NCBI RefSeq assembly: GCF_005771495.1
Contig: NZ_VAUW01000006.1
Location: 1-64,000 of the forward strand
Origin: Maribacter sp. ACAM166
Lineage (GTDB): Bacteria > Bacteroidota > Bacteroidia > Flavobacteriales > Flavobacteriaceae
Length of the DNA stretch: 64,000 bases
Reading direction: 5' to 3'
The notes under the pieces are model-generated. The model searched no databases. It was not told the DNA's origin and saw only the letters and a program-made list of their open reading frames with translations. Positions 2,944 to 64,000 of this stretch are shown piece by piece; the first letter of the stretch is position 1, and each line of letters begins with the position of its first letter. Made by a program: the position numbers and the translations under genes.

Positions 2944-5162
2944 GCGCTAAAAAAAAGAAAACCGCTACGTTTTTAGGTACGCTGCCCAAGAATTTATTTT
3001 CTGGTTTCGTGGTGTCTTTAATAGCCCTTCCCTTAGGGCTCGGACTGGCTTTAGCGAGCGAGGCCCCTCCTATATCCGGTATTATTGCTGCAGTGGTTGG
3101 CGGCGTAGTAGTTTCGCTTTTAGGTGGCTCGAATGTCACCATTACTGGACCAGGGAATGGAATGGTGATTGTGTTATTGAGTGCAATTACAACTTTAGGC
3201 GCAGGTAATATGTATGAAGGTTATCTTTTTACGTTAGCTGCAGTTGTATTTTCCGGTATCTTAATGCTTATCCTTGGGTTTCTTAAAATGGGCCGACTGG
3301 CAGATTTCTTTCCGGCATCTGCTATTGAGGGTATGCTGGCGGCCATAGGCTTAGGCATACTAGCCAAACAGTTTCATATTATGATCGGTCATAATAACGA
3401 GCAAGGTAGTATCGTTCACTTATTGTTACAAATACCAGAAGGCATTCTTGGCCTATATAATAATTATCATTTAGAACAGCTAATTGCCGCAATTATCGGG
3501 CTGATCGCTCTACTGATCATGGCAAATTATTCTAAGATCAGAAATAAGTATTTACATCTTATTCCCGCCCCAATGTGGATATTGATTTTAACTGTGACCT
3601 TCAGTTATGTTTTTGATTGGATAGACGTGCCCTATCCCTTACAGGGTGAGTTTTTGGTCAATATTCCAGATAACATCCTGTCTAATTTAGCCTTTCCTAA
3701 TTTTTCAAAAGTGCTTAAATTAGAATTTATAGTGGCTGTTTTCTCTATCACCCTTATCGCTAGCATCGAATCATTATTAAGCATAAAAGCAGTAGACAAG
3801 CTTGATCCTGAGCGTAGAAGATCTAATGTAAATAAAGACCTTAAAGCTCTTGGTCTCGCCACTACACTTAGTGGTTTAGTAGGTGGTTTGAACGTAGTCA
3901 CGGTGATTGCGAGAAGCTCCGTTAATGTAAACAACGGAGCGACCAATAAATCTGCTAATTTTTTTCATGCCCTTTTCCTAATTATATTTGTGCTCCTTTT
4001 TCAAGATCAATTAAAACGAATACCGTTGGCTGCTTTAGCTGCGATTTTAGTATATACTGGTTACAAGCTTGCTACACCGAAGAACATTAGAAAAATTGCC
4101 CGAATCGGTAAAGAACAGATTATCATTTTTACAGTAACCCTACTAACGACCTTATTTACAAATCTGATAACCGGTATAGCAATTGGGATTGTAATGACCT
4201 TCTTAATTCACGTTGCGCTTAATAAGAGTATTTTATTGTTCGTAAATAATTTGGTAAAGCCCAATATATTAATGTTCAAAGAAAAGGATGGAGGTAATTA
4301 TTACATCAGCGTAAAGTACTTCTCTAGTTTTCTTAACTTTTATAGATTAAAGAATAAATTGGATATTATTCCGGAAAATGAAAATGTAATACTTGATTTT
4401 TCATTATGCAATTTTGTAGACCACACCGTAATGGAAGGCCTAGAGAATTATGTGGACAACTTTACTAAAAAAGAGGGAAGTATTGAATTAATTGGGCTCG
4501 ATAAGCATGGTGCAGATTCCAAACATCCATTTGCAATTCGTAAATTGTTGCCATTGGCCAAACTTGGGCCTATTCAGAAATATTTCACCAAAAGACAGGG
4601 TCTTTTGAAAGTTATGGCCAAAGAATACAACTGGTCGTATATGCCAAATCGATCTAATAAAACTAAATTTTTAAATAAGTTCATTTTCTTTAGAACGAGA
4701 AAAGTCCCTTTTTTCTATAACAGCTTTTACGACGAAACAAAAACGTTTCATCTATTTGATGTGGAGTTTAGTGAGGGTGAATTCATTGCGCGCGAAGTAG
4801 TAAAGGCAACGATATTACATATAAAGCTAAAGCAACCAATGCCAGTATTTACATTGGATAAGGAAGGGCTTTTAGATTTCATATATGGTATGGCAGGTTT
4901 TAAAGACATTCAATTGGAAAATCATCCCGATTTTAACAAACGCTTTTTCTTAAGTGGTGAAGATCAATCTGAAATTCAAAATCTGTTTACTGACGAATTG
5001 ATATTGTTTTTAGAAAGCAACCCGTATTACCACGTTGAAACAAACGGGAATTCTATTATGATTTTAAAGAAAGAGCGCCTTTTAAGTGTTAAAGAAATTA
5101 AAGCAATGCTTTATTTTGGAAAACAATTAAACCTACTGTTGAATCAAAATAGTACCGCTTAA
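2940..5162 (+). CDS. SulP-family inorganic anion transporter with STAS domain
   Basis: A 740-residue transporter of the SulP/SLC26 family. These carry sulfate, bicarbonate or other anions across the inner membrane. The SulP core occupies about residues 12-430 (start GFVVSLIALPLGLGLAL, then GGSNVTITGPGNGMV). A STAS-like domain follows around 450-540 (NVILDFSLCNFVDHTVMEGL). Roughly 190 further residues at the C-terminus match nothing I recognise. The start is a TTG in the overlap TTGA with the stop of the Usp gene upstream, so the two proteins are probably made together. The substrate cannot be read from sequence. In marine flavobacteria SulP proteins are often proposed as bicarbonate carriers, but no carbonic anhydrase gene is next to it here. 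Confidence 0.88.
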   Translation: MSAKKKKTATFLGTLPKNLFSGFVVSLIALPLGLGLALASEAPPISGIIAAVVGGVVVSLLGGSNVTITGPGNGMVIVLLSAITTLGAGNMYEGYLFTLAAVVFSGILMLILGFLKMGRLADFFPASAIEGMLAAIGLGILAKQFHIMIGHNNEQGSIVHLLLQIPEGILGLYNNYHLEQLIAAIIGLIALLIMANYSKIRNKYLHLIPAPMWILILTVTFSYVFDWIDVPYPLQGEFLVNIPDNILSNLAFPNFSKVLKLEFIVAVFSITLIASIESLLSIKAVDKLDPERRRSNVNKDLKALGLATTLSGLVGGLNVVTVIARSSVNVNNGATNKSANFFHALFLIIFVLLFQDQLKRIPLAALAAILVYTGYKLATPKNIRKIARIGKEQIIIFTVTLLTTLFTNLITGIAIGIVMTFLIHVALNKSILLFVNNLVKPNILMFKEKDGGNYYISVKYFSSFLNFYRLKNKLDIIPENENVILDFSLCNFVDHTVMEGLENYVDNFTKKEGSIELIGLDKHGADSKHPFAIRKLLPLAKLGPIQKYFTKRQGLLKVMAKEYNWSYMPNRSNKTKFLNKFIFFRTRKVPFFYNSFYDETKTFHLFDVEFSEGEFIAREVVKATILHIKLKQPMPVFTLDKEGLLDFIYGMAGFKDIQLENHPDFNKRFFLSGEDQSEIQNLFTDELILFLESNPYYHVETNGNSIMILKKERLLSVKEIKAMLYFGKQLNLLLNQNSTA

Positions 5163-5700
5163 AACTTGTATAATACAATACGTATTAATTTAAACCAACT
5201 CCTCATTCTACTGACACAGTAACTCTAGAGTATCTATTTATTTGGTGTTCTTAATAGGGTATTGGGTAGGGGTCAATATTAATATAAGTACCATTAAAAT
5301 TAGTTATAAATCAAAATACTGTGTTGCCTATTCGTTCAATTAGACATGCTATTTTTAATATCTATTTAGGGGTGACATTGTTAAAAGATAAAGGTAATCC
5401 TACAAGATAATAAGAGAAAACTTAGCTTTATACGTGTCTTTTCTTAAATTTGTTAAAAATTGCCAATTTTATGTTTAGTCCCCTGGTAATATTTAATTCA
5501 GCATACATCAGCTATTAATATTTAATCATGGTTCTCCTTGACAAAATGTACTGTATCAATTTTAGTATAAAAAAGGCATGTACAAATTAAATTTAGTTAG
5601 GCAAATAATGGAGATTAATACGGTTTATTGTCTTGCCTACTTATACATAATTCAAATTATATGAATGCTGCCCTAACTTCTAATTGCAAAAATTCATATA
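5163..5700. other. Gene-free spacer of 538 bp
   Basis: AT-rich spacer between the SulP gene and the histidine kinase gene. All frames are broken and I found no RNA gene. The only structure noted is a 7-bp inverted repeat, TAGGCAA at 5598-5604 and TTGCCTA at 5633-5639, with a loop of about 28 nt. It is presumably the regulatory region of the downstream kinase gene. Confidence 0.4.
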
Positions 5701-48933: not shown

Positions 48934-49293
48934 TTAGGGAAATGTCTGACCAAAGGTCAATAAGTTACTGTCGGGGTCTACTAAAGAAAATTCCTTTTGA
49001 CCCCATGGTTTAACCTCTAGTTTTCCATTAGGATGAATAGGCACCTTGTTTTTTGATAACAATCGGTATACTGTGTCTGTTTGATTTGTTCTAATATAGA
49101 GCTGACCATAATTTTCTAGTGTGTCTAGTCCCTTAAATAAGAAAAAATGAATTTGAATATTGTCTTTTTCAACCATTAAATACTCAGGATAATCAGTAGT
49201 TCCAAATTCATTAAATCCTAGAAAATTAATATAATAATCTCTAGTAACAGCCTTGTTCCGCATTGGTAATTTCGGATTTATGGAAACTAACAT
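48934..49293 (-). CDS. VOC-family (glyoxalase/bleomycin-resistance-like) protein
   Basis: A 119-residue protein of the vicinal oxygen chelate superfamily with two paired beta-alpha-beta modules. The first module (SINPKLPMRNKAVTRDYYIN, then FLGF) and the closing WGQKEFSLVDPDSNLLTFGQ are classic for the bleomycin-binding/BLMT-like subgroup. Such proteins either sequester a drug or are metal enzymes. Which of these applies is not evident, and potential metal ligands are sparse. It converges on katG's terminator. Confidence 0.85.
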   Translation of the reverse strand: MLVSINPKLPMRNKAVTRDYYINFLGFNEFGTTDYPEYLMVEKDNIQIHFFLFKGLDTLENYGQLYIRTNQTDTVYRLLSKNKVPIHPNGKLEVKPWGQKEFSLVDPDSNLLTFGQTFP

Positions 49294-49552
49294 TTAATAT
49301 CTTTTTATAGTTGTAACTTGATTTAAAGGTAACTTTTATAATAAAAGAACAAACAATAATAGAGGGCACTTTTTTTAGATAAGATATATGTGAGAGGTTA
49401 TAATCTGATGAATTTCCCATGCTTTCACCATGATTTTTAGGTTTTTTTGATAGTACTTTGTTCATTGTTACTGTAACAATTAGCAATAAATTGCTACCAA
49501 TGCTAAGAAGGCTTTTACTATCTTTCAATATTAACTATAAAATCAAAACACC

Positions 49553-50482
49553 ATGGGAGCGTTCATTTGGATTCCAATCGTAATTTTTGTGATTATTACA
49601 GTCCTTTCAGGAGTATTTATTGTAAAACAGCAGACGGCTGTTTTAATTGAAACGTTTGGAAGGTTCACGAGTGTACGTCATTCAGGTATTCAATTTAAAA
49701 TTCCGTTTGCACAACGAATTGCCGCACGAGTTGGTTTAAAAATTCAACAGTTAGATGTGATTATAGAAACGAAAACGCTTGATGATGTTTTTGTCAAAAT
49801 AAAGGTTTCTGTTCAATATGTAGTCATTAGGGAAAAAGTGTATGACGCTTTTTATAAATTGGAATATCCCCATGAACAAATTACATCGTACGTGTTTGAT
49901 GTGGTACGGGCAGAAGTGCCAAAAATGAAATTAGATGATGTTTTTGTAAGGAAAAATGACATTGCAATTGCTGTTAAATCTGAACTGCAAGAGGCAATGT
50001 TGGATTATGGATTTGATATCATTAAAACATTGGTAACTGATATTGACCCTGACGCCCAAGTTAAAGAGGCCATGAACCGTATAAATGCATCTGAGCGACA
50101 AAAAACAGCCGCACAGTTTGAAGGTGATGCTGCCCGTATATTAATAGTTGAAAAGGCAAAGGCTGAAGCTGAAAGTAAACGTTTACAAGGAATGGGTATT
50201 GCAGACCAAAGAAGAGAGATTGCTCGTGGGTTGGAAGAATCTGTTGAGGTACTGAACAAGGTCGGCATTAATTCACAAGAGGCTTCTGCGTTGATTGTAG
50301 TTACGCAACATTACGACACGTTACAAAGCATAGGAGAAGCCACGAATACCAATTTAATTTTATTGCCAAATTCCCCGCAGGCTGGAAGTGATATGTTAAA
50401 TAATATGGTGGCTAGTTTTACGGCAAGCAATATGATTGGCGAAAGCATGAAAAAATCGCAAAAACCAAAACCGAAAGAGTAA
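49553..50482 (+). CDS. SPFH-domain (stomatin/prohibitin-like) membrane protein
   Basis: A 309-residue protein with one N-terminal membrane helix (WIPIVIFVIITVLSGVFIV) and an SPFH domain (about 30-190: QQTAVLIETFGRFTSVRHSG, IDPDAQVKEAMNRINASERQ). An Ala/Glu-rich coiled coil follows (AARILIVEKAKAEAESKR), then a tail ending SQKPKPKE. Such proteins form large ring or cage assemblies in the membrane and influence proteases and membrane domains. No NfeD-type partner gene is beside it. It ends at its own strong terminator. Confidence 0.9.
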   Translation: MGAFIWIPIVIFVIITVLSGVFIVKQQTAVLIETFGRFTSVRHSGIQFKIPFAQRIAARVGLKIQQLDVIIETKTLDDVFVKIKVSVQYVVIREKVYDAFYKLEYPHEQITSYVFDVVRAEVPKMKLDDVFVRKNDIAIAVKSELQEAMLDYGFDIIKTLVTDIDPDAQVKEAMNRINASERQKTAAQFEGDAARILIVEKAKAEAESKRLQGMGIADQRREIARGLEESVEVLNKVGINSQEASALIVVTQHYDTLQSIGEATNTNLILLPNSPQAGSDMLNNMVASFTASNMIGESMKKSQKPKPKE

Positions 50483-50509
50483 ACTAAAGTTGTAAAATGT
50501 CATTTCATA

Positions 50510-50548
50510 AAAAACGCCCAGAAACTATTAAGTATCTGGGCGTTTTTG
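50510..50548 (+). terminator. Intrinsic terminator after the SPFH gene
   Basis: AAAAACGCCCAGA and its complement TCTGGGCGTTTTT form a 13-bp stem around a loop of about 13 nt, followed by T-rich sequence. The A tract on the left makes it potentially bidirectional. Confidence 0.88.
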
Positions 50549-50604
50549 TTTAGGTTCTCAGAGTTAAGGACAAAAATTACTTAACGAACCCCTAAAGCAA
50601 CCGA

Positions 50605-50638
50605 GGAACAACGTAAAACACGTTCCACACACATGTGG
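50605..50638. other. Two mutually exclusive small hairpins between terminators
   Basis: GGAAC (50605-50609) can pair with GTTCC (50622-50626), and CCACA (50625-50629) with TGTGG (50634-50638). Both stems need the same CC at 50625-50626, so only one can form at a time. The segment is enclosed between two strong terminators in a 280-bp spacer with no open frame. It could be part of a small RNA or of the glnS transcript end; the evidence is structural only. Confidence 0.3.
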
Positions 50639-50644
50639 TTTAAA

Positions 50645-50691
50645 AACACAAAAAAGCCCTTAAGATGGAGTTCTAAGGGCTTTTTTGTGTT
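50645..50691. terminator. Strong bidirectional terminator for glnS
   Basis: A perfect 18-bp stem: the arm ending GCCCTTA at 50662 and the arm starting TAAGGGC at 50674 are exact complements including the A6/T6 tracts and ACAC/GTGT ends. It lies about 70 bp past the glnS stop on the minus strand. Confidence 0.88.
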
Positions 50692-50763
50692 AGAAAATTT
50701 AATGCTACGTAGTGTATTCAATACCTAAAACGTAGACCCTAAATTCACTATAAATAAAGTAGG

Positions 50764-52449
50764 TTACTTCTTTTCTTGAACTTTTGCCCAAGAGTCTCTC
50801 AACCCTACCGTTCTATTAAAAATAAGTTTTTCTGCAGTGGTATCAGGATCAACACAAAAATATCCGATTCGTTGAAATTGAAAACGATCACCTGATTTTG
50901 CGTTTTTGAGTGCAGGTTCAACATATCCTGTAATAACACTTAAAGAATCTGGATTTATAAAATCTAAGAAATCTTTGTCTTTATGTGTATCTGGACTCTC
51001 ATCTGTAAAAAGGCGATCATACAAGCGAATTTCTGTTGGAACTGCATGTGCTATAGAAACCCAATGCAAGGTGCCTTTTACTCGACGCAAACTTTCTTCT
51101 GTACCACTGCCACTCTTACTTTTTGGGTCATACGTACATTGAACCTCTATAATATTCCCTTCGGTATCTTTGGTGCAAGACTCAGCCTTAATGATGTAAC
51201 CGTTTTTTAAACGAACTTCTCCACCCAATTTTAAACGGAAGAATTTCTTGTTTGCAGCTTCCTTAAAATCTTCTTGTTCGATATATAATTCCCTAGAGAA
51301 AGGCAATTCTCTTGAACCTGCGGTTTCATCTTCTGGTGAGTTTTCAGCTTCCAGCCATTCAGTTTCACCTTCTTGATAATTGGTGATTACCAATTTTAAC
51401 GGATTCAAAACACCCATTACCCTATGGGTGGTTTTATTCAAATGTTCGCGAATATTGAATTCAAGTAGGGATACATCAATTAGATTATCTCGTTTTGCAA
51501 TACCTATTGTATCAACGAAATTTCGAATGGATTCTGAGGTATACCCCCTTCTACGCAACCCTGAGATGGTTGGCATTCTTGGGTCATCCCATCCGGTAAC
51601 ATGTCCTTGTTCTACCAATTGTAGTAATTTACGTTTACTAACGATAGTGTGGCTTAAGTTGCGTCGCGCAAATTCACGTTGTTTAGGGCGTATGTTTTTA
51701 GTAGTATATACTTGATCTAGAAACCAATCGTAGAGCTCACGGTGCATTGCAAATTCTAACGTACAAAACGAGTGCGAAACTTGTTCGATATAGTCACTTT
51801 CCCCATGAGTCCAGTCGTACATAGGATAAATACACCAATCGGTATTAGTACGGTGATGAGCTTTATGAAGTATTCTATACATAATTGGATCCCTCATTAA
51901 CATATTCGCTGAGGCCATATCGATTTTAGCCCGCAGAACATGAGTGCCTTCTTTGAATTCTCCACTTTTCATTTTTTCGAACAGGGTAAGATTCTCTTCA
52001 ACGGTGCGATTTCGATTTGGACCATTGACCCCTGGTTCCGTTGGCGTACCTTTTTGTTCTGCCATGTCTTCAGATGATTGGTCATCTACATAGGCCTTGC
52101 CATCTTTAATTAAATGAACTGCCCAATCATGAAGTTGCTGGAAATAATCTGAGGCATACCGTTCGGTATCCCACTTAAAGCCTAACCATTCCACATCTTT
52201 TTTAATGGCATCTACATACTCTTGTTCCTCTTTTGCCGGGTTGGTATCATCAAACCTTAGGTTAACAGGGGCATTGTAGCGTAGCCCTAACCCAAAATTC
52301 AGGCAAATAGAACTGGCGTGTCCAATGTGCAGATAACCATTGGGCTCTGGTGGAAAACGAAAACGAAGTTCGTCTCTGGTATACCCATTCTCTAAGTCTT
52401 CCTCTACAAGTTGTTCTATAAAATTCAAAGACTTTGATGTCTCGCTCAT
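50764..52449 (-). CDS. glnS: Glutaminyl-tRNA synthetase
   Basis: A 561-residue class I synthetase that charges tRNA-Gln directly. The HIGH motif is in RFPPEPNGYLHIGHASSICLN, the KMSKS-type loop in HTIVSKRKLLQLVEQG, and the glutamine/ATP pocket in YPMYDWTHGESDYIEQVSHS. The C-terminal anticodon-binding beta barrels (about 340-555) are complete. Length is normal. With gltX also present, the cell has separate enzymes for Glu and Gln. It is divergent from the sprC gene. Confidence 0.97.
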   Translation of the reverse strand: MSETSKSLNFIEQLVEEDLENGYTRDELRFRFPPEPNGYLHIGHASSICLNFGLGLRYNAPVNLRFDDTNPAKEEQEYVDAIKKDVEWLGFKWDTERYASDYFQQLHDWAVHLIKDGKAYVDDQSSEDMAEQKGTPTEPGVNGPNRNRTVEENLTLFEKMKSGEFKEGTHVLRAKIDMASANMLMRDPIMYRILHKAHHRTNTDWCIYPMYDWTHGESDYIEQVSHSFCTLEFAMHRELYDWFLDQVYTTKNIRPKQREFARRNLSHTIVSKRKLLQLVEQGHVTGWDDPRMPTISGLRRRGYTSESIRNFVDTIGIAKRDNLIDVSLLEFNIREHLNKTTHRVMGVLNPLKLVITNYQEGETEWLEAENSPEDETAGSRELPFSRELYIEQEDFKEAANKKFFRLKLGGEVRLKNGYIIKAESCTKDTEGNIIEVQCTYDPKSKSGSGTEESLRRVKGTLHWVSIAHAVPTEIRLYDRLFTDESPDTHKDKDFLDFINPDSLSVITGYVEPALKNAKSGDRFQFQRIGYFCVDPDTTAEKLIFNRTVGLRDSWAKVQEKK

Positions 52450-52529
52450 GTCGTTTTATTTCAGTCTACAAAAGTAGCAAAATTGCCTGAACTAGGAGGT
52501 TTAAAATAAATACACCTTATTTTAAATGA

Positions 52530-52597
52530 GTTTCACAACATAAATGTTCCTTCCGACAACAATAAATTCCATTTCACCGTTATAAATAACATATTTG
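52530..52597 (+). promoter_or_regulatory. Bipartite upstream element plus ATATTTG box, copy 1 (sprC)
   Basis: GTTTCACAACATAAATG (52530-52546), a 9-nt spacer, ACAACAATAAATT (52556-52568), then after 22 nt ATATTTG (52591-52597). The same arrangement with the same spacings occurs upstream of sprB. The ATATTTG word resembles the end of the Bacteroidota -7 box. It lies 77 bp upstream of the sprC ATG. Confidence 0.6.
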
Positions 52598-52673
52598 ACT
52601 ATGAATTGACGGCGAAACAAAAATGTTATTAACCGACTTTTCAACCGTAGTGGCCCCATAACTACAAATACTT

Positions 52674-54920
52674 ATGAAAACTTTTACCAAAAATTTCGTT
52701 TTTAGCGTAATATGTATGCTTTTTAGTGTCACACAGTTAATGTCACAGGCAATAGTAATAAACGCACCAGAACCAGCAGATAACCCCAATTTAGCAGGTA
52801 ATTCGCCTTGGACAGCAGTTTGTGCTGGAAATGGCGGGTTCAATGAATATTATGTCAACATTACCTGGGCAGGAACCGTGAATACGGGAAACGATTTTGT
52901 TTTAGAACTGTCGGATGCCAATGGTAGCTTTACAAGTACTGAAACTTTGCTGACAATAACGGATCAAAATTCTGTTAATAATTTTGATGTTAGTTTTTCA
53001 ATTCCAACCACTACAAGAGGTCAGGGGTATAAGATGCGAGTACGTAGTACCGACCCTGTAAAGGTGGGTACGGCTTCTCCAACTTTTAACATGTACTACA
53101 TGGATGTCACCAGTAGTCTTAACATTAGCGAAACAGGTGACGGGGTTCCTCCTGGCAGTGTGTGTAGTACAGGACCAATTTCATTACAGGTAGATAATAT
53201 TAGTAATCCTGAAACCTATCAGTATATTTGGTATCGTAGTGGTACTGAAATTGTCGGAGAAAAAGGACATACACTTTCTGTTACTCAAACAGGTATGTAT
53301 AATGCCTATGTCGATTACGGTCCTATTTGTACGGGATCAGGAAATACAGATTCTAATATTGTTGATGTAAACATAGGTGCATCAGGAAACGGAATTGCAA
53401 TTACCAACCCAACTAATACATCTCTTTGTAGTACAGATGCCGAAACATTAAGTATTAATAAAACGGAAACTGATTGGAATTACCAATGGTATAAAGATGG
53501 TGCGGCTATTTTAGGCGCTATGGGAACTTCGTATACTGTTAACGCATCCACTACTGGGTTTGAAGGAGATTATGTTGTTGAGATTGCCGGGACAGGAATA
53601 TGTAATGAACAATCAGCAGTAGTAACGATAACGAATGCAGAGGCCTATACGGTAACTGTTGATAATGATATCAATTTAATTTTATTACCATCGCAAACAC
53701 AAAGTTTATCGATTACTACAACTGCAAATACACCAAGCTTTAAATGGTTCAAAGACGATGTAGAGATAGCGAGTGAAACAAATAGTACGCTAAGCGCTAC
53801 AGAAGCAGGACAGTATTATGCAGAAGTTTCACAAACAGGAGGCTCTTGCGCAATCACTTCAAAAAAATCAGAAACCACAACCCTTGTTTTACCAACTTCT
53901 TTTGAGATGACTATTGATTATACCGATGCGTATGCTGTATGTGAATCGACTAATACGACACTTAGTGTACAAACGATAGGTGCCGTAGCGTCCGATGGCA
54001 CTGTTACAGATGTTACTAGTGCATTGATTAATGTTTTTTCCTATCAATGGAAAAAAGACGGTGTAAATATAGGTGGTGCCAATAGCAAGAATATTAGCCT
54101 GGCTTCAAATGCTGAAAACGGAAGCTATCTTTTGACCGCAACAATTGAAACGTTCAATGAAAGTTCTAATACATTGTCGATAAAACTTCTAACTAATGAA
54201 ATAGTTGCTATCACTAGTTCTGGGACAGTATATTGTTCTTTAGGTGAAACGATTACATTAACGACAGCTACAGATTTAAGCGCAACTAGCTTTGAATGGC
54301 AACTAGATGGTTCTTCGATTAATACAACAGACCTATCTTTTAATGTATCCACCCCAGGAACATATCGATTAGTTTTGGACAGAGATGGTTGTTCTTTACG
54401 TTCAAATGAAATTATTATTTCTCCCTTAGATGAAAATCTAATTACGCTTGATCCAGGCACAGAAATCGTTATAACAGGAGGCACTACCAAAACGGTAACT
54501 GCTAGCGGAGGTTCAGCCTTCAGATGGTTGGATTCCAATTCTATAGAACTTAGCAATTCTGATAGTGTTACTTTTTCTGAGGCAGGTAGTTATACGCTAA
54601 TTGCTTCGATAGATAATTGTGAAATAATAAGACAATTGGAAGTAACGTTATTAGACACATTCAGGGTTCCTAATGTAATTACAGTCAATGGAGATGGTAT
54701 TAATGATCAATGGGTAATCCCGAATTCATATTCTAATAAAGAAGATGTAAATGTGATTATTTATAACGAACAGGGTCAAGAAATTATTAATGAATTTGGT
54801 TATAAAAATAATTGGCCGCAGTCAGCAACTGCGTTCACGAAACAAAATATGGTGTTCTATTACAAGATAAGGAACGCTAGTGAAGTACTCAAACAGGGTA
54901 CTATCACAGTAATACGTTAA
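52674..54920 (+). CDS. sprC: SprC-like gliding-locus protein with Ig-like repeats and T9SS type-B C-terminal domain
   Basis: A 748-residue secreted surface protein. The signal peptide is NFVFSVICMLFSVTQLMSQ. About six Ig-like repeats follow, each with a central Trp strand (YQYIWYRSGTEIVGEKG, YQWYKDGAAILGAMG, FKWFKDDVEIASE, YQWKKDGVNIGGA, FEWQLDGSSI, FRWLDSNSIELSN). The last ~90 residues are a gliding-motility-associated C-terminal domain (FRVPNVITVNGDGINDQWVI, then YNEQGQEIINEFG), which directs export by the type IX secretion system. Order and neighbours match sprC of the sprC-sprD-sprB-sprF locus of Flavobacterium johnsoniae. The gene name is inferred from synteny and architecture. sprD follows after 7 bp. 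Confidence 0.8.
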   Translation: MKTFTKNFVFSVICMLFSVTQLMSQAIVINAPEPADNPNLAGNSPWTAVCAGNGGFNEYYVNITWAGTVNTGNDFVLELSDANGSFTSTETLLTITDQNSVNNFDVSFSIPTTTRGQGYKMRVRSTDPVKVGTASPTFNMYYMDVTSSLNISETGDGVPPGSVCSTGPISLQVDNISNPETYQYIWYRSGTEIVGEKGHTLSVTQTGMYNAYVDYGPICTGSGNTDSNIVDVNIGASGNGIAITNPTNTSLCSTDAETLSINKTETDWNYQWYKDGAAILGAMGTSYTVNASTTGFEGDYVVEIAGTGICNEQSAVVTITNAEAYTVTVDNDINLILLPSQTQSLSITTTANTPSFKWFKDDVEIASETNSTLSATEAGQYYAEVSQTGGSCAITSKKSETTTLVLPTSFEMTIDYTDAYAVCESTNTTLSVQTIGAVASDGTVTDVTSALINVFSYQWKKDGVNIGGANSKNISLASNAENGSYLLTATIETFNESSNTLSIKLLTNEIVAITSSGTVYCSLGETITLTTATDLSATSFEWQLDGSSINTTDLSFNVSTPGTYRLVLDRDGCSLRSNEIIISPLDENLITLDPGTEIVITGGTTKTVTASGGSAFRWLDSNSIELSNSDSVTFSEAGSYTLIASIDNCEIIRQLEVTLLDTFRVPNVITVNGDGINDQWVIPNSYSNKEDVNVIIYNEQGQEIINEFGYKNNWPQSATAFTKQNMVFYYKIRNASEVLKQGTITVIR

Positions 54921-54927
54921 GCTCGTC

Positions 54928-57078
54928 ATGCTAAAAAAAAGTGTTTTATATCTATTGTTATTAGTGCTTGCTACTGTAAAGGTTAGCGGGCAAGAGGAAA
55001 ACCCATTTGTATCTTATGATGTTCCTGCACAGAACCTATTAAAGTATAACAGGTTTTTAATCAACCCAACCTTTTCAACCGTAAGGGAAGATAAGTCCTA
55101 TATCAATTTGCTACACCGAAACCAATCGGTACAATTTGATGATAACAATCAAAACTATTTTTTAAGCTATAGTGGTCGTATTAGCGATAAAACTGGTTTA
55201 GGCCTTAGTCTGTACTCCCAACGTTTGGGTACGCTTAGTAATTTTGGAGTCTTGGCCAACTACGCTTACGGAATAAAGCTAAATGATAAAAGCAACTTTA
55301 CCTTTGGTGCAAATGTATCTTACTACCAAAGTGGCTTTGATCAAAGTAGAGCTTCAACAGTTGAAGAAGATCCTTTTTTAGCTGGTTTGCAAGATCAAAA
55401 CCTAATTTCATTTCAACCTGGTTTCAACCTTTCTTATGGCAAGTTTGACATAGGGGTGTTCGCAGAAAATTTATTCGATTATAATATTAAAACAAGTGAG
55501 TCTCTAACTGAATTTAAGGATAAAACCTTTTCTGGCCACTTACAATATACCCATCAGTTTGAAAATCAAACAGGAATTTTTGAAGAAGGTCGACTAATGC
55601 CATTGACAAGAGTTAGAAAAGTGGGTGAAGAAGATGTTACGTTGGGTGGAAGTTTAATTTTAGACCTTCCTAAATTAGGATGGATTCAAGCTGGGTACGA
55701 TAGTTTTTATGGTGCAGCCGCTGGTGTTGGTTTTAACCTTAACCGTAGAATTTCATTAGGGTATACTATGGAAAAAGGATTGTCTAACAATTTTGACAAT
55801 TTTGGACTAACCCATGAAATCTCTTTTGCATATTCTTTCTCTCCAAACCTTACAGAAGACCGGGTAATGCTGGAGGATGATTATGAAGATGATTTAGTTA
55901 TGAATGACATAGTGCCTGAAAATATTACAACGAACGAGGAAATAGAAGAATTGAAGCAAAAATTAGCTGAAAATGATGCAATAATAGAGGAGTTAATGTT
56001 TCGTCAAGACTCATTAGAAACAACTCGACAAGGTGATTTGGAACGCCGTTTTGAAATGGTGATGCGTATGGTACGGAATGAAACAAATGGTGATAGACCA
56101 GATTTGGAAAAAAGGGCCAAGAAGCTTTTTATGTTTGACGATAACATGACGGAAATCACATCAACTCAAAATTCAAGTAATAGTGGAAGGGATTTAAATT
56201 CTGATAATTCACAAAATGAATACAAACGAAATACGGTAGCAGTTGCAAATACAATCAATAGAACGAATACTGCCATTGAAAAGCAAGAGATAGCTGAATC
56301 TAATACCAATCGTCGCAATGGTCAATCCAAAAGAAAGAAAGAACAAATACAACCAAAAGAGGCCATTGCAGTCAACAGACCTAAACTACAAAACGTACAG
56401 GATAAAGTGAAAAGTAAAAGGTTTAAAGATTTACCGAATGTAACCGACGGGTATTATGTTGTAGCCAATGTATATAAAGGAGGAAAGTATATGGATAGAT
56501 TCTTGAGCACCTTAACTAGTAAAGGTATCAATGCAGATTTTATTGATAATCCCAATAACGGACTGAAATATGTTTACTTGCAACGATATGAAACATTTGA
56601 GGAAGCTTTGGTCGCACATGATTCTAATCTAAACGGAATGTATGAAGGTGCTACTTGGATCATGAACGTTGCTAACAAGTATACAAACAAAGCCTATGCC
56701 AACAACGTAAATAAAATTAAGGAGAAGTCCTCTAAATATGAGACGAATATGCTTAGCAAAAATGTTGTTGTTAAGGATAATGTAGCATCTAACGACACAG
56801 ATCCAAAATCGTATCTTATAGATGGTGTAGGGTCTGATTATTATCTTATTGCAAACGTCTTTGCAAATCCTAACAATGCGAAGCGATTTGTGAAATTATT
56901 GAATTCTTTCGGGTTGAGTGCGAGCTATTTTATTAACCCTAAGAATAATTATAGGTACGTTTATCTTAAAAAACATGATTCTTGGACCAATGCTCTTATA
57001 TCGTACTATTCTAAACTTAACGACGCATATAACGACAAGATGTGGATAATGCGTGTGAATCATGAGCAGCTGGTATAG
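54928..57078 (+). CDS. sprD: SprD-like protein: PorP/SprF outer-membrane barrel with two SPOR-like repeats
   Basis: A 716-residue envelope protein with a signal peptide (SVLYLLLLVLATVKVSGQ). Residues ~30-310 are a PorP/SprF-type beta barrel (NPTFSTVREDKSYINLLHRN, LGLSLYSQRLGTLSNFGV, GLTHEISFAYSFSPN). A coiled-coil/low-complexity linker rich in Asn, Lys and Glu spans about 335-505. Two homologous SPOR-like modules follow: about 510-585 (GYYVVANVYKGGKYMDRFLS) and about 637-712 (YYLIANVFANPNNAKRFVKL), each ending in a W-I-M-x-V strand. SPOR modules usually bind glycan strands, so it may link the outer membrane to the cell wall. It is coupled to sprC (7 bp apart). The name is inferred from synteny. 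Confidence 0.78.
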   Translation: MLKKSVLYLLLLVLATVKVSGQEENPFVSYDVPAQNLLKYNRFLINPTFSTVREDKSYINLLHRNQSVQFDDNNQNYFLSYSGRISDKTGLGLSLYSQRLGTLSNFGVLANYAYGIKLNDKSNFTFGANVSYYQSGFDQSRASTVEEDPFLAGLQDQNLISFQPGFNLSYGKFDIGVFAENLFDYNIKTSESLTEFKDKTFSGHLQYTHQFENQTGIFEEGRLMPLTRVRKVGEEDVTLGGSLILDLPKLGWIQAGYDSFYGAAAGVGFNLNRRISLGYTMEKGLSNNFDNFGLTHEISFAYSFSPNLTEDRVMLEDDYEDDLVMNDIVPENITTNEEIEELKQKLAENDAIIEELMFRQDSLETTRQGDLERRFEMVMRMVRNETNGDRPDLEKRAKKLFMFDDNMTEITSTQNSSNSGRDLNSDNSQNEYKRNTVAVANTINRTNTAIEKQEIAESNTNRRNGQSKRKKEQIQPKEAIAVNRPKLQNVQDKVKSKRFKDLPNVTDGYYVVANVYKGGKYMDRFLSTLTSKGINADFIDNPNNGLKYVYLQRYETFEEALVAHDSNLNGMYEGATWIMNVANKYTNKAYANNVNKIKEKSSKYETNMLSKNVVVKDNVASNDTDPKSYLIDGVGSDYYLIANVFANPNNAKRFVKLLNSFGLSASYFINPKNNYRYVYLKKHDSWTNALISYYSKLNDAYNDKMWIMRVNHEQLV

Positions 57079-57234
57079 AAGGGCTTAAAGGCCACCTGAC
57101 TGTGTGCTTTCTAGGTTTATTTTAATGTTGATATTCTTTTCATTTAGTAATCTTTAGGTTTATTGACTCAATTACTGCTATTTTTAGTAGGACAGGTTCT
57201 ACTCTGACCATCCGAACCAGTAGGTTTACTCTAC

Positions 57235-58065
57235 CAGCCCCCTTCTTTCAAATAGCTCCGGTTGAGCACATAACAGTATTCATTTAAGTAACCTTGTAAA
57301 TCAGTAACATGGTGATGGAATCTCCTTAGTTATCCTTACAGGTTCATTATAACCCTATAGAGATCTGAAAAGTGTCTTCCTTTCCCCTGAAAATATTTAT
57401 TTCAGGTTTTCAATTTTTTTTTAAAGGCTTATACCCTGGCCATTTATCAGGGGTAACCCTAGCACTTGACTTTACGTAAGACTTCATAAAATCTCCCGGG
57501 CTATTTCTTTCCATCCGCTTTTTCTATGATCCTGAAATATGAACGGCTTACCCCTTTTTTCTATTTCTCTAGCGCAATTAAAACAAGTTTCTTGGTTTTG
57601 TTCTGACGCCGCTTCATCCATATTTCCTGACCCCAAATGACAGTTTCATTTACCACTGCTTGCTCTTCTATAAGGTAGTCATGTGAACTTTTCAGCGCTT
57701 TTGTGACTTTACGCTTAAAGGCCTAACTGGTTTTCTAGGATAGGTATAGTTTACCGCTAAGTTGAGTAATGGTAATTCCTTTTTTGTTCGTACTGACAAA
57801 TTATAGAATGTAAAATGCTATGAACAGATTAAACTTGACCTAATGGAAGACAGTATTTTGCAGTAGCTGATTCCACAGAGTTAAAACAGGTACAATAACG
57901 GGAATAAGTATGTAGGATGCCTTAGCAATATCGGTCGTGCCCACATTTGTGGCAAGAATAGCCTTCCTGTCATTTCATTTTAGCCTAATAGCGGGGTAAT
58001 TAATCCTGCTTAGGAAATTGCTCCTGAAATTCGAATAATGATAGGCTTTTGAATAGTTGCTTCAT
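57235..58065 (-). pseudogene. IS1595-family transposase remnant between sprD and sprB
   Basis: Minus-strand fragments in three frames line up in the order of an IS1595 transposase. They are the start MKQLFKSLSLFEFQEQFPKQ, a zinc-ribbon part (GYSCHKCGHDRYC, YCTCFNSVESAT), ITITQLSGKLYLS, KRKVTKALKSSHDYL, and the first catalytic position as VVNETVIWGQ, where Asp is expected and Asn is found. Then come KKLVLIALEK, SYFRIIEKADGKK and the C-terminal RFHHHVTDLQGYLNEYCYVL plus NRSYLKEGG. More than ten stops and several frameshifts show long decay. Element ends and target duplication were not recognisable. It explains most of the 1.5-kb gap between the sprD-like and sprB-like genes. Confidence 0.82.
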
Positions 58066-58289
58066 AAAACATATATTATTATAGCCTAAATCGCTAAGCT
58101 TTTGACTACTTGTAAAGTGCCTAAATCAATGGCTTTAATAAAAGACAAGTACTAGTTATCAATGCCGTTTTGAGAAATAGCCACCAGCTTTTTATTTTAC
58201 CTATTTATAAAGGTTTTAATCAGTAATTTCAAATTGAAAATTAAATTCACTTCCTACTCTCCAATTATTATTTGTCCGCAAAAGTATAC

Positions 58290-58314
58290 GTATTTACCTC
58301 ATAAGAGGAAATAC
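58290..58314. repeat. Small inverted repeat upstream of sprB
   Basis: GTATTT-A-CCTC, loop ATAA, GAGG-AAATAC: a 10-bp stem with one bulged base. There is no T tract after it. It lies about 75 bp before the conserved spr element and could be a protein-binding site or part of the flank of the decayed insertion sequence. Confidence 0.35.
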
Positions 58315-58387
58315 AAATACCATTGAATTACTGTTAAAGATACTAAGCAACAGGCTTTTCAATGAAATCAAACCCATTCTAATGGCT

Positions 58388-58455
58388 GTTTCACAACAGA
58401 AATGGATCATATAACAACAATAAATTTCTTACTTAATTACTATAGTGAATATTTG
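58388..58455 (+). promoter_or_regulatory. Bipartite upstream element plus ATATTTG box, copy 2 (sprB)
   Basis: GTTTCACAACAGAAATG (58388-58404), a 9-nt spacer, ACAACAATAAATT (58414-58426), then after 22 nt ATATTTG (58449-58455). Only one of the 30 element positions differs from the copy upstream of sprC, while the spacer and the 22-nt stretch differ freely. It lies 107 bp upstream of the sprB ATG and shows sprB can be transcribed independently of sprC-sprD. Confidence 0.6.
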
Positions 58456-58562
58456 TTATTGGGAAATTCGAATTTGTCACAATTTTACAATGACTAATTG
58501 CAATGTCCAAACAAATGACCAAGATGTTCATATTATTTGATACTATTAAATCTGCTAAATTT

Positions 58563-61500
58563 ATGAAACCGACTATTGTAAAACTTGTATTTTTGGTAGG
58601 CATTATTTGTTTCTTCGGAATCTCTCAAAGTAATGCTCAAGAATATGTTCCATTTACGCCGAGATTAACCGGAGGTAACATGGAGGTTAGAGGCGATATT
58701 ATTTTTGTTGGGAATAATATTTTAAATAGAGCATCTGAATCCAACCCATCACAGGCGAATGATCCTTATAATGGTACGCAGAATAACAATTCTTTGTGGA
58801 TGGAGTATATCGATATCGATACTGACCCCACAACATTTAGCTCAAGTAGTGCAGAACTTAACGTAGCTGACCCTGACTGTTCTCTGGTAAGATATGCAGG
58901 ACTATATTGGGCAGGAACCTATCCGAATGAGCGCAGTACGGACGGTGGCGCACAGTTTAACGGGACACCAAGAATAGAGGAGTGGAACGAGATAAAGTTT
59001 AGGGTTCCAGGAGGAACTTATGTAGATTTAATAGCAGACAACAACCCCGACCCTGCTGGGCAAGAAGATGATATCATCATGAATGGATACCAGCCCTTGA
59101 ACCCTACTGTTTTTGCAAAGGATGGCCCAGTTATATGTTATAAAAACATTACGGATTTAGTACGTTCTAACCCTAATCCATATGGAGAGTATACAGCGGC
59201 GAACGTTAGGGCAACAAGAGGCAGGAGAAATGGTTCAAGTTCTGCGGGTTGGGTGATGGTTATTATTTATGAGAATCCAAATGAATCAGGAAAATTTATA
59301 TCAACCTTCGACGGTTACGCAGGTCTTTCTGGAGCAGTGGGCAATGTAGACGTGGATATAGATGGATTTAGAACACTTCCAGCGCCTTTTCCAGTTAGAG
59401 CAAGAGTTGGTGTGGGTGCTTTGGAAGGTGATAGAGGTATACGAAACGACCGCTTTTTCATACGGGCAGACCTTAATTCTGGCTCTACTTTTACGAATCT
59501 TACAACGGGACTAAATCCGGCCAATAATTTTTTCAATTCTACTATAACCTTGAACGGGGCTGAGGTTTCTACGCGTACCCCTTTTGGCACAAATACGTTA
59601 GGTACAGATTTGGACCTTTTTAACTTGAACAATCCAAGTGAAACCGTACTGCCCAATGATGAATCCGGGGCAACTTTGCGTTTTACCTCCAACGGAGATG
59701 GGTACGGCCCATTTTTGGCCACATTTTCGGTAGAAATTATTGAGCCAAATATTGTTCTTGAAAAAAGAGTAGAGGATATCGCTGGTAATGATATTACTGG
59801 TGCTGGTGTAAATTTAGGGCAGACCCTTGACTATGTGCTTTCTTTTAGAAACTTGGGCAACGATAACGCAGCAGGATATACTATAAGGGACGTATTACCT
59901 GTCAATACAGCGTTTACAAGCGTAGACATTAGTAGTGCGCCAGGCGTTACCCATACTGTAAATGCCGCCACAAATGAAATTACATTTAACATACCCGATG
60001 ACTTGGTAATTATGGGAAGGCCAACCTATACTATACGTATGAGGGTAAGGGTAGCCGAAAACTGTTTTGATTTTGTAGACGCCTGTACAGACGTAGTCCA
60101 AAATTTAGCCTATTCTACTTATCAAGGAGAAATCAATAGTGCTGTAATTACAGATGACCCTAGTGTTTCCGATTTTGACAATTGTGGGTTTGTAACTCCC
60201 GGAGCAACTAATTTTTTGTTGGATGACCTTTCTTCTTGTAACTTTTCAAGGACGACACAACTCTGTGGTGATAATGTTATTTTAGATTCGGGTGATGGAT
60301 TTGATAATTATGTCTGGTATTTGGATGTAAATGAAGACGGACTTATAGATTCGGGAGATGTAAATATCACAGGGCAAGATGGAAATCCGGATAATGACCC
60401 AAGCACTATTGTAGTAACCGAAGCTGGGGTCTATATCGTAGATAAACAAATTGCTGACCCATGTAAAGGGTTTATGGAAATAATTACGGTTGAACGTTTT
60501 GGTACAACACAAACAAACCCGATAATTGACTTTTTTAACGATAGTAACTCAGATGCTAATAGCACCAACGATATTCAAGGTGAAATTGTTGTCGACTGTA
60601 ATGATGGAACTACGCAGTTCCCAAAAATCGCATTATGCGGCATAAACGATTCTCAATTATTGCAGGTAAATATTTTCGACGCACAGAGTCTTACTTGGGA
60701 AATATTAGATGAAGCTAGTTGCACTGCTCAACCAGAAAATTGTTTAAATAGAAATTTAACATGTACATGGAATCAAGTAGGTACGGGAAGTGATTTTATG
60801 GCAGACACCGCTGGTAAATATCGCTTGTCCATTAGATACCAAAACGGATGTATCAGTCGTTTCTATTTCGATGTATTCCAGAATAATCTAGACATACAGT
60901 ATACTTCACGAAACGTAGTTTGTGAAACGGAGGGTAACATCACCATCACCAATTTAGGTAGTAACTATGGTTACCAGTTGGTAAACGCTGCCAACAATAC
61001 GATTGTGGTGCCTTTTAGCGCAACTAACGGGCCAAGCTTTGATTTCAGCACCAATGGTGCCTACAGAGTAGAAGTAGTCCAATTAAATCCGTCTACAGGA
61101 AATCCTATACCAGGGGCATGTACATTCACTACTCCGGATATTGGAATTCTAAACAGGGCCCTACAGGTAGACGTAATTACCACCGATGCCAATTGCAATT
61201 CCCTTGGTTCAGTACAAATAAACGCAAACAATGTCTTTCCTAATTATAGTTATGAACTAAGGTTGAATGATGGAACTGCAGCTCCATCATCTCCTGCATA
61301 TATTGGTCATCCAGGGGGTACTTTGGTGGACAGTGAAACTGCTCAGCCAAATAACACCCATACGTTTAACAATGTAAATCCGGATGACTATTTTATAGTA
61401 ACCAGAACAGATGATGGTTGTGTAGATGTTCAATCTATAACGATTAACCGTATCCCGGACCCTGTTCTTTCAGCAATAACTTTAGCTGATATAGGTTGTT

Positions 61501-64000
61501 CGGCCGGAAGTATTGAATTGACGAGAACCGGTGGTCAAGGAAATCCAGATTTTCTATTTGCTATATGGAGTAAAGATGGAACACTGATTCACAGTCCTGG
61601 TGGAACTCCTACAGAACAGCAAATCATCGATAATATAGACCCCAATGATTTCCAAGTTGAGACTACATTTACATTTGGATGGAGAGATACGGATGATGAT
61701 GGAAATGATGAATATTTTCCGAACGAAAATGGCGTATATCAGTTTATTGTCTTAGATGCGAACAACTGTTATGGCATTTCCAGTCCAGTAACCATAAACG
61801 ATAATGGGGTTTTAGTAATCGATTCTGTAGATGAGGTAGAGCCTTCTTGTAGTGGAGATTCAGACGGGGAGCTGACAATTAATATTTCTAACGGGGTAGG
61901 ACCTTATCAATATAGTATCGATAATGGTACTACGTATCAACCTACGTCTAACTTTGTAGGCCTTTCTGCCGGTGCTTACGAAATAAGGGTTCTTGATAGC
62001 TCAGGATGTGACATTACGTTGCCATATAGTTTAAGCGAACCCTTTCCATTGAGTGCTTCGGCAGGAGTTTCTAGAGACGCTACTTGTAACCCAATGGGAG
62101 GCGAAGTAAGAATAACCAATGTTGTTGGTGGTTCTGGCACCTACGAATACAGTTTTGATGGCGGCAGCACTTGGGTTACTACTCCTAGCTCATTATTACC
62201 TCCAGGCGATTATACCGTACTGGTTCGGGACGATTCATGTTCATTTCCTATGAATGTTTCGGTGGAAGATTTGCCCGAGCCACCTAATGTTTCGCTAACA
62301 CCTGAGGTCGGTTATAATTGTGATGGTTCAGGAACGATAACTGCCTCTCCTAGTATCACGGGATATGATTATAGATATGAGTTGGACGGGGTTCCAAATA
62401 CTCCAGACCCTACGAGCAATGTGTTCAACGATGTTTCTCCTGGCACATATACGGTAACTACGTATTATACTTCACAAACACCTCCGACACCAAGCCTTCT
62501 ACTATCAGAAGATTTTGGCGTAGGAAACGGAACTATTCCAAGTCCGGACACTATTGGCTATGCTTATGAAGACCAAACTACTAGCACCGCAGGAGGGGGA
62601 GATACAAACCGAAACATCAATGATTTTCAATATAGCGTAACCAACAGGATTGTTGCTCCTTTTGGAGCATGGGTAAATCCTAATAATCACACGAACCCTG
62701 CTGATCCTAATGGCCGTTTTTTGGTCATTAATGTAGGAACTCCTAGTCCTGGTCAAATCATTTACACAAAACCTATTAATGATGTAATACCGAATAGACC
62801 ATTAACAATTAATCTGTACATATTTAATTTACTTAACGGATTAATAGGAAACACTCAGTTAAACCCCGATTTGACCATTGAAATAAGAACCATGGGCGGA
62901 GTTGTAATCCAATCCATTAGAACAGGACAGATACCAAAAAATACAGGACCAGATGATTGGGAATTGTTTACCACTGATTTTGATCCGGGAGCCAACACCA
63001 ATCTAGAGTTTGTAATTCGTTCGGAGATTTCTGGAAATAGCGGTAATGATTTAGCGTTGGATGATATTGAAATATTTCAGGTTCCTGAGGTATGCGAACT
63101 CTTTGTAGAAACTCCTGTTACTGTAGAAGCGGGTAGAGTTTTCTCAAGCTCGTTTCAAAGCGCAACAAATGTTTCTTGCAACGGCCTTTCTGATGGTACC
63201 ATAACCTTTTCAATTGAGAATTTTGATGCTACCGCAGGGTTTGAATATTCTGAAGACAACCAGTCAACATGGATTCCATCAACAAGTTCCTCGGTAACAA
63301 CCAATCCAGTTTTTGGTGCGGGTAGCCAAACGGTATTTATAAGAAAAGCAGATGAAATTACCTGTACAACGTCGGTAACCCGAACGATTACTGAACCTAG
63401 TGCAGTTGTTGTAACTTCAAGTATCACAACAGCTTTGACGTGTAATAATGATGCCAGTATTACAGCCAACGCTTCAGGTGGAACACCAACCTTTGTGTAT
63501 CAATTAGAAGATAATAGTGGTGTTATTATTGGGCTTTTCGACTTTACAACTAATGGAAATAATCGAGTTTTCTCAGGTCTTTCTGACGGAACTTATGTGG
63601 TTAGAGCAAGAGATTCAAATACTTGTGAAGAAGCTGCTACACCATTAACTATTGCGCCCTTAGATCCAGTTGCTTTCAACATTACCGAAACCTTATGTTA
63701 TACTGGGGGTAATAGCGCCAGTATTCAAGTTGACGTTACCGATGGTAATGGAGGATATCAATTTAGAGTTAATGCAGGGCCATGGTTAACACCAACACCT
63801 TCATCAGCAACCACATATACATTTAACGGACTTTCAAGCGGTATTTATGATATTGATGTTAGAGATCAATCTGGTTGCCCGGTCACCTTGGCAACGCAAA
63901 CAGTAACTATAGAAGCGCAGCTGACGGTTTCTGCAACAGTACCTAATATTTCTGCTTGTGATACAGATGCCCCAATAACGATTACGGCTAACGGTGGAGA
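58563..64000 (+). CDS. sprB: SprB-like giant gliding adhesin (partial, runs off the right edge)
   Basis: The frame beginning at the ATG at 58563 appears open to the window end (1812 codons visible; I read selected stretches codon by codon and found no stop). Signal peptide: KLVFLVGIICFFGISQSNAQ. The mature start (FTPRLTGGNMEVRGDIIFVG, then SLWMEYIDIDTDPTTFSSSS and YAGLYWAGTYP) is the N-terminal domain of SprB-type adhesins. A DUF11-like segment follows (~400-510, LGQTLDYVLSFRNLGND). Tandem SprB-type repeats come after it, with the pattern S-C-x-G-x-S-D-G, GGxxxYxYSxDxG, GLSxGxYxIxVRDxxGC (for example at ~1090-1250 and ~1535-1800). SprB is carried along the cell surface by the gliding motor and exported by T9SS. 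Gene name by architecture and synteny. Confidence 0.85.
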   Translation, partial: MKPTIVKLVFLVGIICFFGISQSNAQEYVPFTPRLTGGNMEVRGDIIFVGNNILNRASESNPSQANDPYNGTQNNNSLWMEYIDIDTDPTTFSSSSAELNVADPDCSLVRYAGLYWAGTYPNERSTDGGAQFNGTPRIEEWNEIKFRVPGGTYVDLIADNNPDPAGQEDDIIMNGYQPLNPTVFAKDGPVICYKNITDLVRSNPNPYGEYTAANVRATRGRRNGSSSAGWVMVIIYENPNESGKFISTFDGYAGLSGAVGNVDVDIDGFRTLPAPFPVRARVGVGALEGDRGIRNDRFFIRADLNSGSTFTNLTTGLNPANNFFNSTITLNGAEVSTRTPFGTNTLGTDLDLFNLNNPSETVLPNDESGATLRFTSNGDGYGPFLATFSVEIIEPNIVLEKRVEDIAGNDITGAGVNLGQTLDYVLSFRNLGNDNAAGYTIRDVLPVNTAFTSVDISSAPGVTHTVNAATNEITFNIPDDLVIMGRPTYTIRMRVRVAENCFDFVDACTDVVQNLAYSTYQGEINSAVITDDPSVSDFDNCGFVTPGATNFLLDDLSSCNFSRTTQLCGDNVILDSGDGFDNYVWYLDVNEDGLIDSGDVNITGQDGNPDNDPSTIVVTEAGVYIVDKQIADPCKGFMEIITVERFGTTQTNPIIDFFNDSNSDANSTNDIQGEIVVDCNDGTTQFPKIALCGINDSQLLQVNIFDAQSLTWEILDEASCTAQPENCLNRNLTCTWNQVGTGSDFMADTAGKYRLSIRYQNGCISRFYFDVFQNNLDIQYTSRNVVCETEGNITITNLGSNYGYQLVNAANNTIVVPFSATNGPSFDFSTNGAYRVEVVQLNPSTGNPIPGACTFTTPDIGILNRALQVDVITTDANCNSLGSVQINANNVFPNYSYELRLNDGTAAPSSPAYIGHPGGTLVDSETAQPNNTHTFNNVNPDDYFIVTRTDDGCVDVQSITINRIPDPVLSAITLADIGCSAGSIELTRTGGQGNPDFLFAIWSKDGTLIHSPGGTPTEQQIIDNIDPNDFQVETTFTFGWRDTDDDGNDEYFPNENGVYQFIVLDANNCYGISSPVTINDNGVLVIDSVDEVEPSCSGDSDGELTINISNGVGPYQYSIDNGTTYQPTSNFVGLSAGAYEIRVLDSSGCDITLPYSLSEPFPLSASAGVSRDATCNPMGGEVRITNVVGGSGTYEYSFDGGSTWVTTPSSLLPPGDYTVLVRDDSCSFPMNVSVEDLPEPPNVSLTPEVGYNCDGSGTITASPSITGYDYRYELDGVPNTPDPTSNVFNDVSPGTYTVTTYYTSQTPPTPSLLLSEDFGVGNGTIPSPDTIGYAYEDQTTSTAGGGDTNRNINDFQYSVTNRIVAPFGAWVNPNNHTNPADPNGRFLVINVGTPSPGQIIYTKPINDVIPNRPLTINLYIFNLLNGLIGNTQLNPDLTIEIRTMGGVVIQSIRTGQIPKNTGPDDWELFTTDFDPGANTNLEFVIRSEISGNSGNDLALDDIEIFQVPEVCELFVETPVTVEAGRVFSSSFQSATNVSCNGLSDGTITFSIENFDATAGFEYSEDNQSTWIPSTSSSVTTNPVFGAGSQTVFIRKADEITCTTSVTRTITEPSAVVVTSSITTALTCNNDASITANASGGTPTFVYQLEDNSGVIIGLFDFTTNGNNRVFSGLSDGTYVVRARDSNTCEEAATPLTIAPLDPVAFNITETLCYTGGNSASIQVDVTDGNGGYQFRVNAGPWLTPTPSSATTYTFNGLSSGIYDIDVRDQSGCPVTLATQTVTIEAQLTVSATVPNISACDTDAPITITANGG

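Follow-up and report, generated by a model that had tools for sequence, protein, structure and literature searches.

The gliding gene cluster of Maribacter sp. ACAM166 contains two copies of a bipartite 39-bp element, one upstream of sprC and one upstream of the giant adhesin gene sprB, and each copy is, with good confidence, predicted from sequence to be the binding site of one and the same LytTR response regulator, whose gene lies at another place in the genome. A LytTR-type regulator of this kind seems to serve in many marine flavobacteria, both for gliding adhesin genes and for undescribed candidate small RNAs. Little is known about the transcriptional on/off control of the giant gliding adhesin SprB, and the analysis now predicts a single regulator, its probable partner kinase and an exact site for many species. 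The same regulator is linked to a candidate small RNA with an almost invariant core, for which the loci searched gave no Rfam match. All coordinates given without a contig or locus name refer to the 64,000-nucleotide stretch analyzed here (contig NZ_VAUW01000006.1, positions 1 to 64,000), from now on referred to as the window.

Two copies of a bipartite element upstream of sprC and sprB

All three genes of the cluster are located on the forward strand. The sprC gene (52674..54920) encodes a protein with a CHU_C T9SS signal and Ig domains, sprD (54928..57078), starting 7 nt behind sprC, a protein with a PorP_SprF domain and a weak SPOR match, and sprB (58503..63998) an adhesin with SprB repeats that runs off the window and may truly start at a later ATG than 58503. 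The names sprC, sprD and sprB, taken over from the initial annotation, are backed by these Pfam matches in part only. The gap of 1.4 kb between sprD and sprB (57079-58502) contains no ORF of 80 or more amino acids and, in the one frame read, no Pfam match.

The proposed LytTR response regulator sites are found at 52530..52568 upstream of sprC and at 58388..58426 upstream of sprB, both on the forward strand, scoring 38.9 and 39.5 bits, respectively, with the site matrix described below and both having orthologous copies in relatives. The initial annotation had described the copies as identical at 29/30 block positions, with differing spacers and surroundings and an ATATTTG word exactly 22 nt further on, and the sequence reads in just this way: block 1 agrees at 16/17, the spacer at 2/9 and block 2 at 13/13 positions, the following 22 nt agree at 6/22, and ATATTTG (7/7), the proposed -7 box, follows on the same strand at 52591..52597 and 58449..58455. 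The two blocks form a direct repeat, ACAACA-N15-ACAACA, with a period of 21 bp, whose forward-strand half-sites are located at 52535-52540 and 52556-52561 (sprC) as well as 58393-58398 and 58414-58419 (sprB). A chance origin of the two matching elements is excluded. The core, allowing up to three mismatches, occurs twice in the window compared with a mean of 0.01 in 100 dinucleotide shuffles, none of which reached two occurrences, and adding the N22-ATATTTG tail left two matches in the window and none in 100 shuffles. Throughout the 4.92-Mb host genome, the 39-bp pattern (up to three mismatches) is found only at these two places, and the reversed control is not found at all. A Rfam search of window positions 49000-64000 found no known structured RNA at the elements.

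Near-identical copies 5.86 kb apart within one gene cluster could also stem from a duplication that took place locally and recently, or belong to a small mobile repeat. The probability of this explanation is negligible, as not only the spacers but also the flanks are close to random identity (33/100 upstream and 31/100 downstream, against a mean of 26.9 with a standard deviation of 4.6 for random 100-mers of the window), spacer types are specific to the gene, being kept gene by gene across species, and the sites face a gene or RNA at a constant distance to the -7 box. Based on the near-random flanks and the gene-specific spacers, this candidate explanation was rejected.

Conservation of the element in relatives

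Within the genus, the 39-bp pattern (up to three mismatches) was detected in 22/36 genomes, 14 of which contain it twice with the copies 5.9 to 8.3 kb apart, and its reversed version had no match. A trimmed core was present in 34/36 genus genomes, including all 30 of the 30 good ones, with 110 matches compared to 6 for the reversed control. When the spacer was lengthened by one base, a single match remained in the 36 genomes, against 6 for the reversed control; given the 110 matches at the true spacing, the spacing is thus part of the signal. Weak trimmed-core matches in three further loci (L081-L083; 7-15 bits, poor -7 boxes) are probably due to chance.

When 84,980 species genomes were scanned for exact matches, at least 118 stretches were found, and 80 loci with 86 matches were analyzed. 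Genera among the matches listed are Maribacter, Arenibacter, Zobellia, Cellulophaga, Robiginitalea, Eudoraea and Muriicola. The gene following the element in the 86 matches listed was SprC-like in 45 cases, SprB-like in 33 and unassigned in 8, four of the latter because the stretch ended. In 79 of these 86 listed matches, the element is followed 23 nt later by the start of TATTTG, and no other offset was seen within the up to 34 nt examined. Family-wide, with at most one mismatch, the element was found in 70/397 genomes representing 41/237 genera, and none of the matches listed was to the reversed pattern. The search of the genome and its relatives called for by the initial annotation led to the two spr locations in the host and to a SprC- or SprB-like gene in 78/86 listed matches in relatives. 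Its view that the element is a conserved regulatory module and not a recent duplication is supported, the same module being found before SprC- and SprB-like genes in many Flavobacteriaceae.

Promoter architecture and site format

Sigma-A promoters of Flavobacterium carry a TTG at -33. By eye, no such TTG was seen at the usual distance from ATATTTG in the sprC and sprB promoters, as expected for an activator-dependent promoter. The ATATTTG word itself keeps an invariant distance and behaves like the -7 box of a promoter, in agreement with the promoter-like part of the module as first proposed. It fits the sigma-A -7 box of Flavobacterium, given as TAnnTTTG in excerpts of PMC9723704, save its missing first T; a perfect TAnnTTTG was found in 0/86 matches listed in relatives. 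A second group of sites, referred to as class B to distinguish them from the sprC/sprB type (class A), reads TTTCACAACA followed by TTCACAACAAWAATTT with the same 21-bp period. Class B sites have TAnnTTTA at the same offset and often no close gene on that strand. According to the consensus lines, the distance to an upstream ACC word is 21 bp in class A and 16 bp in class B, and because of this difference a shared third half-site 21 bp upstream is not claimed in general.

The site matrix combines 22 sites of each class; those of class A are a random draw from 84, and those of class B exclude L262 and include L256 and L257, the regulator-kinase loci of genomes G111 and G321. As a null, reversed sequence gave a maximum of 4.8 bits in 75,720 positions and the reversed window 6.8 bits. 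LytTR regulators bind promoter-proximal pairs of 9-11 nt repeats that are separated by 11-13 nt, and their sites have no common consensus, as described in excerpts of PMC4847170. The latter means that the site sequence itself is not comparable; the sites of the window and its relatives match the LytTR format in having ACAACA half-sites with a period of 21 bp.

The initial annotation had suggested one regulator, for example an ECF sigma factor or a response regulator. An ECF-type or other alternative sigma factor for T9SS and gliding genes, recognizing the element directly, would account for conserved blocks at fixed distances before T9SS-related genes, and excerpts of PMC9723704 report an ECF-like promoter (SM6) with CGT in the -10 region for some T9SS genes of Flavobacterium psychrophilum. 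However, the element consists of direct repeats, and its sigma-A-like -7 box is a separate unit that follows at a constant distance, the class A consensus carries CATATTTGTT in the -10 region and lacks the CGT box that marks SM6, and sites cluster at a LytTR regulator gene. On these grounds the sigma factor module, a very unlikely explanation, was rejected; the response regulator part of the suggestion fits the 21-bp direct repeat and was retained, and the ECF factor with its -35/-10 pair was dropped.

A LytTR regulator with a neighboring kinase

Weaker genus matches at other intergenic sites led to a locus (L067) in which a site is located between a regulator gene and a TPR/HisKA_2 kinase gene. 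The regulator contains Response_reg (7.2e-21) and LytTR (9.5e-18) domains, and its N-terminus is the same in a second locus (L069), whose kinase was scanned for domains too. The host regulator is encoded at G000:C36:55205-55963 and is 94% identical to the L067 copy; its DNA (L211) matches the LytTR model. In the host locus (L310), the regulator gene (2200-2967) is followed by the site (~3104) and the kinase gene (3374-5344), and directly ahead of the kinase start comes another site, weak at 5.5 bits, with TAAGTTTG behind it. The TPR/HisKA_2 kinase encoded directly behind the regulator gene is likely its partner.

Sites above 8 bits were detected at 26/30 regulator loci from 28 genera, none of them among the loci used for building the matrix, and the other 4/30 are without such a site. 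Genomes G111 and G130 contain rows of five and four sites, respectively, between the regulator and kinase genes, those of G130 having weak -7 boxes. Because of these rows, control of the regulator locus may be the older function and the capture of spr promoters may have come later. In G095, a single site is located upstream of the regulator gene, behind which there is no kinase gene.

Co-occurrence was analyzed in 239 family genomes, with the regulator called at E-values up to 1e-60 and found in 50 of them. All 43 site-bearing genomes encode the regulator, 7 genomes encode it without a site at one or fewer mismatches and 189 have neither (Fisher 1.8e-40, not corrected for the relatedness of the genomes). 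Site-bearing here includes matches away from spr genes, for example in G111, G218 and G269, the last having a single match near an RnpA-like ORF (L262). Two of the seven exceptions (G184 and G263) have a site of 24-26 bits before a SprC-like gene, three (G065, G092 and G257) encode SprC-like genes without a site before them, and in the remaining two (G095 and G130) no SprC-like match at 1e-40 was found. The regulators of these last five are divergent (60-79% identity), and equally divergent ones are found in the site-bearing genomes G111 (75%) and G269 (68%). Among 23 regulator-free genomes tested, a SprC match at 1e-40 was found only in G056, which has no site, and this comparison therefore carries little weight.

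Kinship of the site-bearing genomes means that many genes of the clade would co-occur with the element, and the host has 13 LytTR loci (one resembling a broken fragment), so that another protein might bind the element and the LytTR regulator be a mere marker of the same clade. We consider this improbable: the site is found at the regulator's own locus in 26/30 cases but at none of the 12 other LytTR loci of the host, where only the orthologue of the L067 regulator has one (27.1 bits), and the tandem rows in G111 and G130 are located between the regulator and kinase genes.

Under the preferred reading, regulation by the LytTR protein, we infer binding, phosphorylation and activation (rather than repression) as follows. 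Two regulator monomers would occupy the two ACAACA half-sites on one helix face, two turns apart, and the bound regulator would activate the promoter directly downstream, which is of the sigma-A type, with ATATTTG as its -7 box and lacking an evident TTG at -33. The TPR/HisKA_2 kinase would signal to the regulator as its likely partner. Once active, the regulator would switch on sprC-sprD and sprB, the gene of its kinase and several short RNAs from intergenic regions, and the supply of gliding adhesin would in this way be tied to the signaling state.

Predicted targets beyond the adhesin genes and candidate small RNAs

Both spr promoters carry the site, in line with the regulator of sprC/sprD and the adhesin that was first suggested, but the regulon predicted from the sites is wider than adhesins and would also include the regulator-kinase locus, an OmpA/PD40 protein and short intergenic RNAs. 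Sites before the OmpA/PD40 protein gene were found at G000:C94:83880-83917 (L064) and in L078, scoring 30 and 24 bits and having weak -7 boxes, and a 22-bit site, likewise with a weak -7 box, precedes the gene of a protein with a weak SprB-repeat match (L076). In the host, the -7 boxes are poor both at the OmpA/PD40 site (0.1 bits) and at a site behind a CoA-transferase gene (-13.8 bits).

Two recurrent intergenic sequences with predicted terminators, referred to as alpha and beta, are found behind class B sites, and we infer that they are transcribed and functional as RNAs. Alpha candidate RNAs are longer intergenic sequences (L245, L247-L251, L260, L264 and L075) in which CCCAAATC words recur and which carry a terminator; some of them consist of two units about 300 bp apart. 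The beta candidate RNA has a nearly invariant 35-nt core followed by a terminator hairpin. Ten loci, alpha and beta loci among them, were searched against Rfam and gave no match. Beta is present in 35/36 genus genomes, mostly in three copies each; the host copies are located at G000:C22:77008, C48:8897 and C83:148317 (L307-L309), and one of the three is without a site. In the family sample, 44/239 genomes contain beta (108 copies), and all 44 encode the regulator; beta is absent from all 189 regulator-free genomes and from 6 regulator-bearing ones. In 22 of the 44 genomes, a beta copy follows the regulator gene on the same strand at a distance of 113-203 nt. Sites above 8 bits precede 16 of 20 distinct beta copies (a duplicate row having been dropped and L252 and L263 left out), two of the 16 lacking a good in-register -7 box. 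By eye, some beta promoters seem to carry not two but three repeats at the 21-bp spacing.

A more far-reaching interpretation, which we favor by a little, is an RNA-centered circuit of marine Flavobacteriaceae in which the LytTR regulator would drive multicopy small RNAs and tiny conserved peptides, some of the RNAs being encoded between the regulator and kinase genes, where up to five sites stand in a row, with the sprC and sprB promoters having been captured in the Maribacter-Zobellia-Cellulophaga-Robiginitalea part of the family. Production of the gliding adhesin would there be governed by the same signaling state as the small RNAs.

Comparison with known systems

The nearest functional likeness is to AgrA and RNAIII of the Staphylococcus aureus agr system. 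As described in excerpts of PMC4227749, the promoters controlled by AgrA are immediately preceded by two direct repeats to which it binds, and AgrA drives RNAIII, a regulatory RNA at its own locus, as well as protein genes directly. Shared features are a LytTR regulator and promoter-proximal direct repeats, and the candidate RNA gene at the regulator locus may be a further parallel. The circuit proposed here differs in phylum, repeat sequence and kinase (TPR and HisKA_2) and would have several dispersed RNA genes instead of one; because the kinase is of another type, it is not classified as an agr system. YpdB, as covered in excerpts of PMC4847170, likewise has LytTR sites with two promoter-proximal repeats of 9-11 nt, the period being 21 bp here, but a single target gene is described for it, compared with many sites per genome in the present case.

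The corresponding gliding genes of F. psychrophilum (remFG-sprCDBF) have promoters that were mapped and mutagenized, and the excerpts of PMC9723704 assign them to a sigma-54 type (SM4) and to SM5 (TAnnTTGY), unlike the promoters proposed here; LytTR has 0 occurrences in the main text of that paper. This points to a different wiring of spr control in this part of the family than in F. psychrophilum. PorXY-SigP of Porphyromonas gingivalis, as far as partial sources describe it, is also a two-component control linked to T9SS genes. It acts via an ECF sigma factor, and the title of PMC5005315 states that T9SS genes are not under direct regulation by PorX; the regulator proposed here combines receiver and LytTR domains and would have its sites at the genes it controls. 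Among open-licence papers, searched by title and beginning of abstract, no description of the element or the circuit was found.

Additional conserved ORFs and site-like sequences

A conserved ORF of 35-36 codons ending in KLFML is found behind class B sites in four loci (L246, L253, L258 and L261), adjoining a CoA-transferase gene or its neighborhood. Two other loci (L068 and L079) contain two tiny conserved ORFs in tandem behind the site, encoding MLYDTYGEEYLVFLQ... and MA(N/H)Q...NINKLTYS. Site-like sequences of 20-22 bits with a poor -7 box are located before a hybrid histidine kinase gene in L073 and L077.
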